From contig CALMGM010000010.1 of the NCBI GenBank assembly GCA_937863685.1, positions 148,158-212,157 on the forward strand: a stretch of 64,000 bases of DNA, read 5' to 3'. Positions 51,729 to 57,033 of this stretch are shown here, in pieces; positions within the stretch are counted from its first letter, which is position 1; each line of letters starts with the position of its first letter. The stretch is from an uncultured bacterium (GTDB taxonomy: Bacteria; Edwardsbacteria; AC1; EtOH8). A program made the position numbers and the translations under genes. The notes under the pieces are model-generated. The model saw only the letters and a program-made list of their open reading frames with translations. It was not told the origin of the DNA and searched no databases.

Positions 51729-52390
51729 TTGTGACGAAGGATGAATTGACGGACATTACGGTCCAGTCACTGCAAGTCTTACATACCCGCCTCCATGGCC
51801 TCGGCTGTTATCCGGCGCAGCACTTGGAAGGATCCTATATCAGCCGCGATCAACTCAACCAGTCTGAGGGAATTGGTGTCCAGCCACTATGGTATTTGGA
51901 CAATGGCAGCACTACTTTTGAGCGTTCAACCCACGACAATCAATGGCACGTGCGTTGGATACTAAGAGAACGGGGGATCACTCTTTGCGGGCCGGAGCCC
52001 AAATCACTTCTCGCTTCAATCCCGATTGAGGCCATGCTGGCAGAAGTAAAAGCGACGATGCGCCTTATAGCGGACCTCTATGTTGCCGAAATCGATCAGC
52101 CTCTTGGCTTTTGGAATTCCCGGTTCGGTCAATCGTTTGCCGTGCTGGCTTATTGCCGTATGCTGCATACACTCCGCACTGGGACAGTACAATCCAAGTT
52201 CGCCGGTATGGAGTGGGCCAAACAAGCCTTGGATTTGGAATGGGTTGACCTAATCCAGCAGGCCTGGGAAGAACGGGAAGGGGTCCGTCATTGCGTGAAA
52301 AGGTGGCAACACGCAAATGAGGAAGCACTGCAAAAAACGCTTGAGTTCATTCGATACGCGGTTTTAAAAACGGAGAAAAGTAATGCCTGA
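51549..52390 (+). pseudogene. Aminoglycoside-type nucleotidyltransferase with homopolymer frameshift
   Basis: The N-terminal half (GVYLVGSLATGDFDLDSDVD) is in the frame of the preceding GNAT; the C-terminal half (51731-52390, TKDELTDITVQSLQVLHTRL... ending LKTEKSNA) is one frame shifted. At 51722-51726 the run is five Ts; with a sixth T the frame would read SDVD-FLVVTKDEL, the expected nucleotidyltransferase sequence. The catalytic GS...D.D residues are thus separated from the helical DUF4111-like domain. Either a recent inactivation, a sequencing error or programmed slippage. Confidence 0.72.
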
Positions 52391-53274: not shown

Positions 53275-53366
53275 AGGAGGAAATCATGAAATTCACATTC
53301 TGATCCGGGCCTGTATAATATGGTCTGGCATAAAATATTGAACCTTCAAATATTGAGGGCCATATG
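53275..53366 (+). promoter_or_regulatory. Leader ORF and alternative RNA stems before the ABC-F gene
   Basis: AGGAGG at 53275-53280 is followed 5 bases later by a five-codon ORF ATGAAATTCACATTC and TGA (53286-53303; MKFTF). Two mutually exclusive stems follow: CCGGGCC/GGTCTGG (53305-53311 with 53322-53328) and ATATGGTC/GGCCATAT (53318-53325 with 53358-53365). The second overlaps the SD (GAGGG) and start codon of the ABC-F gene at 53364. This is typical attenuator logic for ARE ABC-F genes, but a simple ribosome stall on MKFTF would favour the blocking stem, so the sign is unclear. Confidence 0.5.
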
Positions 53367-54947
53367 TCAATTATAAATGTGAAAAATATATCCCATTATT
53401 GGGATTATAGCAACCATTCTGTTTTTACGGATGTAAATTTCAGTTTAAATTACGGCGAAAAAGTGGGATTGATCGGTCCCAATGGATGTGGCAAAACAAC
53501 GTTGCTTAACATTGTTTCCCTACGGCTCCCGCCAACAAGCGGGGAGGTAATATGCTCCGATATGCCAAGGGAGTATGGATACTTGCCTCAACAGGATGAA
53601 ACAACTTCTGCTATTGATCTTTATTCATTTGTATATTCAGTAAAACCGGATCTTTGGTCGCTTCAACAAAAAATGAATTCAGACAACAGCATTGATGGTG
53701 AAGCATATCTGCAATTTACCGAGAAAAACTGTTTTCGGTTTAGGGCTTTAGTTGAAAAAACGTTAAGTGGATTAGGCTTTGATCCCGATCAATGGAAGCA
53801 ACCGTTTGACCAATTAAGTAGCGGCCAGCGTTCGCGCGCCTGGCTGACCAGAACCATTCTTTCGGATCCGGAAGTTCTTTTTTTGGATGAGCCGACCAAT
53901 CATCTTGATCTTGAAGGCAGGGAATTCCTGGAAAGTTTTATACGGTCGTTTAAAGGTGCCGCGTTGGTAGTATCTCACGACAGATATTTTCTCAACCAAA
54001 CTGTAAGCCGGATACTTGAACTGCGGCGGGGGAAATTGCAGGACTACCCCGGCAATTACGATGCATACCATGCCCTACGCCAGGCCCGAGAAAATAGGCG
54101 GTGGCAGGAATATGATCTGCATAATAAAACAATCCACAAATTAGAGATCGAAGCCACCGCCCGGATGGCCTGGTCGCAGCGTACAGAGCGGGGCTGGAAG
54201 CGAGAGCCGGGGGATAAGCAACCGAGTGACAAGGCTAAACGATACGCCAAAAAAATGGCAAAGCGAGCCAAGGCCGTACGAACCAAAATCGAACAGAAGC
54301 TGGAACGTGAGCGGGCGGATAAGCCTTTCGTTGAAAAACGGGTGAAACTCAAGTTTCCTCATCTGGAGAATCTGCCCGGATACGTGTTAACAGTAGACGA
54401 ACTTTCTAAGCAATATAATGGTAAAGTTGTGTTTTCGGATTTTTTGCTGTCCCTGCAGGCCGGTGAACGGGTGATCATCAGCGGGCCGAATGGTTCCGGG
54501 AAAAGCACTGTAATGAAAATACTGGCGGGTGAGATACAACCGGATAAAGGGGAGTTCCATTGGGCTAAGAGGGTGACGTTGGGCTATTATCCGCAGGAGC
54601 AAATATCGCTGGACCCGGAAGCAACAGCTTTGGAGGAAGTAATGAAATGCGGTTGCACCACTGAACAGGCTTGGACATTTTTGGGCGCTTTGATGTTACG
54701 GGAGGATTATGTGCTAAAGCCCATCAGCATGTTTTCTGCCGGAGAAAGGGCTAAAATTATTATTGCCCGCCTGTTTTTATCCGGGGCCAATGTATTATTG
54801 CTGGACGAACCAACCAATCATCTTGATATAGACGCCCGCGAGGCCCTGGAAAGAGCGTTGACTGTTTATTCCGGCTCTATCCTTATGGTTACCCATGACC
54901 GGTATTTGATTGATAAACTAGCGACCAGGGTGATAACCTTCAGTTAA
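53364..54947 (+). CDS. ABC-F family ribosomal-protection-type ATPase
   Basis: A 527-residue soluble protein with two ABC domains. NBD1: Walker A GPNGCGKTT near 35, signature QLSSGQRSRAWL, Walker B VLFLDEPTNHLD. NBD2: GPNGSGKST near 365, FSAGERAKIIIARL, VLLLDEPTNHLD. The interdomain linker (about 230-325) is long and rich in Lys/Arg (KRYAKKMAKRAKAVRTKIEQ), the part that contacts rRNA in the ribosome exit/E-site region. No transmembrane domain. ABC-F proteins of this type restore translation stalled by antibiotics or difficult peptides. Its leader has regulatory-looking features. Confidence 0.85.
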   Translation: MSIINVKNISHYWDYSNHSVFTDVNFSLNYGEKVGLIGPNGCGKTTLLNIVSLRLPPTSGEVICSDMPREYGYLPQQDETTSAIDLYSFVYSVKPDLWSLQQKMNSDNSIDGEAYLQFTEKNCFRFRALVEKTLSGLGFDPDQWKQPFDQLSSGQRSRAWLTRTILSDPEVLFLDEPTNHLDLEGREFLESFIRSFKGAALVVSHDRYFLNQTVSRILELRRGKLQDYPGNYDAYHALRQARENRRWQEYDLHNKTIHKLEIEATARMAWSQRTERGWKREPGDKQPSDKAKRYAKKMAKRAKAVRTKIEQKLERERADKPFVEKRVKLKFPHLENLPGYVLTVDELSKQYNGKVVFSDFLLSLQAGERVIISGPNGSGKSTVMKILAGEIQPDKGEFHWAKRVTLGYYPQEQISLDPEATALEEVMKCGCTTEQAWTFLGALMLREDYVLKPISMFSAGERAKIIIARLFLSGANVLLLDEPTNHLDIDAREALERALTVYSGSILMVTHDRYLIDKLATRVITFS

Positions 54948-56281: not shown

Positions 56282-56311
56282 TTGTGATTAAAGTAATATC
56301 GTTAATTATAA
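56282..56311 (+). promoter_or_regulatory. Candidate promoter
   Basis: TTGTGA at 56282-56287 and TTATAA at 56306-56311, spacer 18. It would start transcription of the structured leader that precedes the RNHCP gene. A SD-preceded 11-codon ORF (56324-56359, MKRKYLHTAHL) lies just downstream. Confidence 0.45.
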
Positions 56312-56316
56312 CGAAA

Positions 56317-56651
56317 GGAAAACATGAAACGGAAGTATCTTCATACTGCTCATCTCTGACTCTGGGGGACGACGCCTAAAGTCAGTGAGATCTGGCAAAC
56401 GCCTACCGATGGAGGGTGAATAAACCCGCCCTACAGTGGCCGGGACAATACTTGTCAATAAAACCGGCCGAGGTTCGGATCCGGGGATGAAAAAAGCCCC
56501 GGTGAAGTTGGAATCGGAAGTAATCGCCGTCCCTAAAGGATGGCGGTAAATCGGCCCCTAGTTGGATCAAGCCTGGAACCCGTAAGGGAAGAACGAACGG
56601 AACCCCGGCTCCTTATTCTTTGTACAACCTACAAGATAAGGAGACCGGAGG
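56317..56651 (+). ncRNA. Candidate large structured leader RNA / riboswitch
   Basis: About 330 nt, without a long ORF, highly paired and rich in A-runs between stems. Stems include CTGACT/AGTCAG (56356-56361, 56380-56385), GGCCGG/CCGGCC enclosing GACAA-TAC-TTGTC (56438-56469), CCGGGG/CCCCGG (56481-56486, 56497-56502) and CGCCGTCC/GGATGGCG (56525-56532, 56538-56545). The last hairpin, CCTTATTCTTTGTA/TACAAGATAAGG (56611-56641, two bulged Ts), covers the AAGG of the Shine-Dalgarno AAGGAG at 56638 of the RNHCP gene. That is how a translational riboswitch works. A GGTTCGGATCC loop resembles a T-loop. It may be related to the raiA motif or another large ornate RNA; this cannot be decided by eye. 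Confidence 0.6.
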
Positions 56652-56975
56652 ATGAGCCGAAACACGGAAAACACCGGATTTCGCTGTGCCCATTGCGGCA
56701 ACGCAGTGGAACCCGTAACCAACGGAAGTTACCGCAATCATTGCCCGTTCTGCCTGCATTCACTGCATGTGGATATCGTGCCGGGAGATCGGCGAAATTC
56801 ATGCCATGGCCTTATGGAGCCGGTCGGGCTGCATAAGAGCAAAAAGGGATTCCAGTTGGTATTCCGATGCCGCCGGTGCGGATCTCGTGGAGTGAACCGG
56901 GTGGCCAACGACACCCAGCAACCGGACAACTTCGATTTGTTGCTTAAGATCATGCAGCAGGGCTGCAAGGTTTAA
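56652..56975 (+). CDS. RNHCP-domain zinc-ribbon protein
   Basis: A 107-residue RNHCP-family protein. Cys pairs: FRCAHCG near 12-15, the family-naming YRNHCPFCLHSLHVD near 28-42, CHG near 53 and FRCRRCGSRGVNRVA near 73-87. Four CxxC-like pairs suggest two zinc ribbons; the protein is probably nucleic-acid binding, cytoplasmic. The gene has its own promoter candidate, structured leader and terminator. SD AAGGAG lies 8 bases upstream and is hidden in a hairpin. The family's function is not established. Confidence 0.85.
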   Translation: MSRNTENTGFRCAHCGNAVEPVTNGSYRNHCPFCLHSLHVDIVPGDRRNSCHGLMEPVGLHKSKKGFQLVFRCRRCGSRGVNRVANDTQQPDNFDLLLKIMQQGCKV

Positions 56976-56997: not shown

Positions 56998-57033
56998 AAG
57001 AGCCTCCGGGTATTCCGGAGGCTCTTATTTTTG
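56998..57033 (+). terminator. Intrinsic terminator
   Basis: Perfect 12-bp stem AAGAGCCTCCGG / CCGGAGGCTCTT (56998-57009 with 57015-57026), loop GTATT, followed by ATTTTTG. It ends the RNHCP transcript and isolates polA. Confidence 0.92.

Follow-up and report, generated by a model that had tools for sequence, protein, structure and literature searches.

Leaders of ribosomal protein mRNAs that mimic rRNA represent a known mechanism of control (PMC7247131), in which, as in the cases of S15, L20, L1 and S7 (str operon), a protein-binding site of rRNA is imitated beside a translation start. The sensing of ribosome-targeting antibiotics by short upstream open reading frames (uORFs) is another known mechanism (PMC12121999), and attenuators such as toiL-topAI, erm and cat carry a short uORF and a ribosome-binding site that is hidden by pairing and is expected to be opened by a stalled ribosome. 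A further point of reference is D3LH, a self-contained S7-binding fragment of 236 nt from the 3' major domain of 16S rRNA, in which core helices of the head are retained. Here we describe an mRNA leader of about 300 bases from a genome of Candidatus Edwardsbacteria, a conserved RNA with a 16S-like part and a tiny upstream gene that is folded over the start signals of a gene encoding an RNHCP protein. The leader is a genuine cis-regulatory RNA, conserved and marked by an unusual 16S-like domain; judging from sequence, it is closest to an rRNA-mimicking leader and a uORF attenuator combined.

Like the ribosomal protein leaders, this leader resembles a protein-binding site of rRNA in both sequence and structure, but the RNHCP gene does not encode a ribosomal protein, the leader has a built-in uORF, and it mimics several helices of one 16S domain, enough to match a 16S model. 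Unlike toiL-topAI, erm and cat, it places a 180-nt 16S-like domain between uORF and gene, and the last codons of its uORF pair with the start codon itself. In contrast with D3LH, it belongs to a natural mRNA, the 5' strands of its h28-h30 equivalents are not derived from 16S by sequence, its h41 is shortened, and its h42 and h43 loops are changed. The raiA motif is likewise a large structured RNA before a gene, and kinship with it or with some other big ornate RNA had been guessed in a preliminary description of the locus; no such Rfam family matched at either the gathering or a relaxed threshold.

The locus lies in a window of 64,000 nt, the whole stretch of DNA analyzed, and all features of the leader and its gene are on the forward strand. 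The RNHCP gene (56652-56975; PF12647, 104.2 bits) encodes a zinc-ribbon protein of 107 amino acids. Its Shine-Dalgarno (SD) sequence AAGGAG occupies 56638-56643, with the start codon 8 nt downstream, and 3' of the gene (56998-57026) a hairpin of 13 pairs and a trailing T run together resemble an intrinsic terminator. To our knowledge RNHCP is a named protein family with no known function, and no paper on RNHCP proteins was found in the literature searched. AlphaFold, given two sequences, modeled the protein poorly (pLDDT 50). Residues 49-86 weakly resemble phage antitermination protein Q at sub-threshold level (PF03589, E 1.7e-4; PDB 7ubj, E 0.7). The folding energy of the leader was -125.8 kcal/mol (z = -5.5 against dinucleotide shuffles; 0 of 100 shuffles). 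These data uphold the long leader without a long ORF, the stems, the SD sequence within a strong hairpin and, as a terminator-like hairpin, the terminator after the unit that the preliminary description had reported, while the promoter-like pair it had placed at the locus was not detected by a promoter scan. The 11 codons that it gave as the upper limit of ORF length turned out to be a conserved uORF, which it had overlooked. Neither the 16S resemblance of the center of the RNA nor the pairing of the start codon with the end of the uORF figured in it.

A scan with all Rfam models, as that description had proposed, returned only one match above gathering score in the whole window, to bacterial small subunit rRNA (RF00177; 56403-56554; 61.5 bits, cut-off 50). 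With just 152 nt covering model positions 926-1370, the match is to a contracted version of part of the 3' major domain. It sits inside an mRNA leader and not in a near-full-length gene (~1500 nt) of an rRNA locus; the genome's own 16S is located elsewhere, on contig C3. The leader resembles a piece of 16S, not a 16S gene. The 16S gene of the genome is itself a partial match (G000:C3:107130-108018; model positions 9-902) near a contig end.

The 16S-head-like domain (56389-56568) was delimited with RF00177, a leader-only covariance model (R1), pair counts and a sequence-only profile. It comprises a closing helix in the position of h28 (56389-56395/56562-56568) and helices resembling h29 (56406-56410/56513-56517), h30 (56413-56418/56427-56432), h41 (56438-56443/56464-56469), h42 (56481-56486/56497-56502) and h43 (56525-56532/56538-56545). 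Two stems noticed previously fall in this domain, GGCCGG/CCGGCC at 56438-56469 and CGCCGTCC/GGATGGCG at 56525-56545. The domain is self-contained; it imitates 16S h41-h42-h43 in fold and in many nucleotides and carries helices in the positions of h28, h29 and h30. Note that the 5' strands of the h28-h30 equivalents showed no sequence likeness to 16S 920-956, only correct pairing, so that their equivalence is structural. The sequence-only profile of 16S 1225-1396 scored 10-39 bits in all 12 leaders tested, with a maximum of 6.2 bits in 1000 shuffles of each of three leaders. Model R1, built from four leaders alone, matched 151 of 386 genomes at E <= 0.001; leaders scored 240-253 bits and the rest at most about 55, and the non-leader matches, where examined, were true 16S genes, aligned over 1179-1398 (E. 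coli numbering). A permuted head, with the 3' part of the leader as a copy of 16S 1098-1125, was considered (4 of 1000 shuffles; Edwardsbacteria only) and is not claimed.

The identity of the copied domain makes uS7 the main rival to RNHCP as ligand, because a 236-nt core of this same domain is the minimal 16S fragment known to bind S7 (PMC3548175). The architecture would be unchanged, but the leader would be bound by one of the head's ribosomal proteins, uS7 (or uS9) being the likeliest, and RNHCP output would report free uS7, in other words how head proteins and 16S rRNA are balanced. In the str operon, S7 autoregulates through a 16S-like mRNA site (PMC10931766), and the leader retains a counterpart of U1240, where a cross-link to S7 is documented. 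However, the second S7 contact, C1378, is not preserved, the chlamydial leaders have a shorter h43, and the known ribosomal leaders control operons of ribosomal proteins, a class to which RNHCP does not belong. We regard a head ribosomal protein as an unlikely ligand.

Twelve leaders from two phyla, Edwardsbacteria and Chlamydiota, were compared in an unfitted MAFFT alignment (A7), in which all 34 core pairs were 100% paired and 16 of the 34 showed two-sided changes; these counts compare mainly two lineages, so that the independent events are fewer than the cells counted. The covariation score of the core was reached by none of 500 shuffles, and partners slid by 1-3 columns paired at only 20-46%. 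For example, the Edwardsbacteria sequence of h29 is CCGAU/AUCGG and the chlamydial one UCAGC/GCUGA. RNAalifold added two helices, P1 and P2, which were 98.5% paired and showed compensatory changes. Helix P1 joins a stretch after the uORF stop (56363-56371, UGGGG..CG, inside the conserved GGGGACGACGCC motif) to a stretch before the SD hairpin (56598-56607, CGGAACCCCG), and P2 joins 56382-56385 (UCAG) to 56573-56576. A variable hairpin at 56578-56589 (ACCCGUAAGGGA) follows, the spot at which the leader of a second Edwardsbacteria genome (G003) has an insertion of ~90 nt. Insertions of ~20-90 nt, some of them inverted repeats, occur in four leaders (L005 from G003, L006, L207 and L216) at differing sites: the h42 loop, the h28-h29 linker and the variable hairpin.

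The preliminary description, which proposed a large structured leader hiding the RNHCP start, had named a lack of covariation or a degraded gene as findings that would speak against it; the outcome was the opposite, with conservation and covariation across two phyla. The same data bear on the suggestion that a decayed 16S fragment came to lie before RNHCP by chance. The 1225-1396 block is indeed recognizable as 16S by its profile, but the leader is conserved before RNHCP in both phyla, compensatory changes extend to strands that are not 16S-derived, and the h43 loop is specific to the mimic. A chance fragment would require a grossly wrong alignment, and we give it a very small probability.

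The 5' part of the leader contains the uORF, whose 11 codons (56324-56359; MKRKYLHTAHL-stop, TGA) are preceded by an SD region (AAAGGAAAAC, 56314-56323) that is purine-rich at the same position in other leaders. Among the 13 leaders with an intact 5' end, with the uORF required to end at the 5' edge of the RNA, an in-frame uORF of 8-14 codons with its own SD was present in 12 (0.31 expected from shuffles); the exception, in G009, has its frame off by one base. The last uORF codons (GCUCAUCU, 56348-56355) form the 5' strand of helix P0, which pairs with 56650-56657 (GGAUGAGC), a stretch that includes the RNHCP AUG; the helix is both conserved and covarying in all 13 leaders. The mean energy of P0 was -13.3 kcal/mol with true partners and -9.9 kcal/mol with partners swapped between leaders (permutation p 5e-5). 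Furthermore, a hairpin over the RNHCP SD (56603-56651) folds in all 13 leaders at about -17 to -24 kcal/mol. The leader carries two features of a uORF attenuator, a conserved short uORF with its own SD (12/13) and conserved pairing that buries the SD and start codon of RNHCP (13/13). The 5' strands of P0 and P1 lie under the expected footprint of a ribosome at the uORF, and the lower stem of the SD hairpin shares bases with the 3' strand of P1, so that the two may compete.

We therefore consider a conserved cis-acting attenuator architecture highly probable. The 16S-like part, the uORF and the folding over the start signals together suggest that ribosome state turns RNHCP on or off. In the default state, RNHCP would be held off by P0 and the SD hairpin; a ribosome that slows or stalls close to the uORF end would cover the 5' strand of P0 (and of P1) and open the start region, and RNHCP would consequently rise when translation is disturbed. 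Such opening by the uORF ribosome is, on balance, the probable route. A point against it is the lack of an obvious partner to release the SD hairpin once P0 opens. The 16S-like domain would act as a decoy of a binding site in the 30S head, and a head-binding protein, most simply RNHCP itself, would stabilize the closed form and repress RNHCP synthesis; the direction of this regulation, repression or activation upon binding, is one that we infer. RNHCP as the ligand of the domain is a tentative assignment. For the full explanation, in which the ribosome on the uORF reads out a translational attenuator joined to a 16S-like decoy that binds RNHCP or another 30S-head protein, we hold confidence and doubt to be evenly balanced.

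An RNA acting in trans, or as a ribonucleoprotein with RNHCP, for instance a 30S-head decoy sequestering a head-binding factor, would make control of RNHCP secondary. Between genera, the DNA of the leader and that of the gene are conserved to about the same degree, and the leader retains 16S-like nucleotides at unpaired positions (73/119 identical to E. coli), as such a role would lead one to expect. However, P0 and the SD hairpin bind the RNA to the RNHCP start and covary with it, and no standalone copies were found apart from one decayed remnant; this reading is quite improbable.

The taxonomic distribution of the leader likewise links it to its gene. In the Edwardsbacteria family, RNHCP and leader co-occur in the same 3 of 10 genomes, the leader directly upstream of the gene, and both are absent from the other 7. 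In Chlamydiota, RNHCP was present in 12 of 234 genomes and the model found 12 leaders in 10 genomes. Of these 12, 11 stand before RNHCP or its remnant; in this phylum the leader precedes 10 RNHCP genes or pseudogenes, with truncated leader copies besides. On a plasmid of Ca. Protochlamydia naegleriophila, blastn placed the leader directly before the RNHCP gene. The decayed remnant mentioned above is a chlamydial match near recA without RNHCP (L226), one RNHCP locus (L210) has kept only the 3' part of the leader, and in-frame stops interrupt five chlamydial RNHCP genes (L208, L213, L214, L215 and L216), which indicates that the leader-RNHCP unit decays often. Leader-bearing RNHCPs group together in a protein tree, where two label changes were required, and may have a single origin. 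Among the RNHCP homologs of other phyla that were examined, most have no leader before them, so RNHCP can do without it. Two matches to the pattern in genome and viral sequences (L017, L019) were judged to be due to chance on inspection of their sequence. No second leader motif was found at 120 viral loci with the h43-loop pattern, the model found no leader in six further viral matches, and a protein-pattern search of viral contigs revealed no relatives.

Upstream of RNHCP in the window are genes for an ABC-F ribosomal-protection protein (53364-54947; 442 bits, cut-off 380), an AadA/ANT(9)-like protein, GNATs, two ABC exporters and RsgA. RsgA is encoded on the contig of RNHCP in all three Edwardsbacteria genomes (G003 and G009 included), and rsgA overlaps RNHCP on plasmid pOCN014 of Vibrio coralliilyticus (L147); the zinc-finger domain of RsgA contacts h29 (PMC9032327). 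In two human gut phage-type contigs (L142:1230-1440 and L143:1220-1430), RNHCP follows short candidate leader peptides, MKLNTLTLERVA and MKSKTMLLERVR, and their leaders also carry a strong hairpin and resemble ribosome-mediated attenuation. Gene context, i.e., ABC-F, RsgA and other leader peptides, suggests that RNHCP is a gene of stress or resistance tied to the ribosome, possibly to the 30S subunit.

The resistance-type neighbors also invite the reading that the 16S-like domain is an antibiotic riboswitch binding a ribosome-targeting small molecule directly. Besides the ABC-F, AadA/ANT(9)-like and APH(9)-like neighbors, it could draw on the GGGGACGACGCC motif, which resembles 16S 1184-1195, a segment that we take to adjoin the spectinomycin site. 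But this likeness is weak (7 of 1000 shuffles), the opposite strand of h34 is absent from the leader, and the ANT(9)- and APH(9)-like matches are remote and far below cut-off; we judge such a riboswitch very improbable.

Returning to the attenuator with a 16S-like decoy, a broader proposal is that the 16S-like domain is a domesticated fragment of the 16S head and acts as a built-in 30S model, so that ribosome state would be read twice per mRNA, by the uORF ribosome and by the binder of the domain, in order to control RNHCP as a protection or repair factor of the 30S head. We hold this to be doubtful. By imitating a defined portion of the 30S head, the conserved leader offers a concrete target for tests, the binding of RNHCP to h29/h41-h43 of 16S and to its own leader. 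Through such leaders, rRNA mimicry would extend beyond ribosomal protein operons to another gene family and be combined with uORF sensing. Leaders of this kind also risk being annotated as rRNA fragments.

Two minor observations concern neighboring genes. At 50952-52390 of the window, a GNAT ORF continues into an apparent aminoglycoside-adenylyltransferase start and the next ORF is a C-terminal AadA_C, possibly, from sequence, a broken aadA-like gene. On a Streptomyces plasmid (L149), two RNHCP genes lie upstream of an FBP-domain gene.
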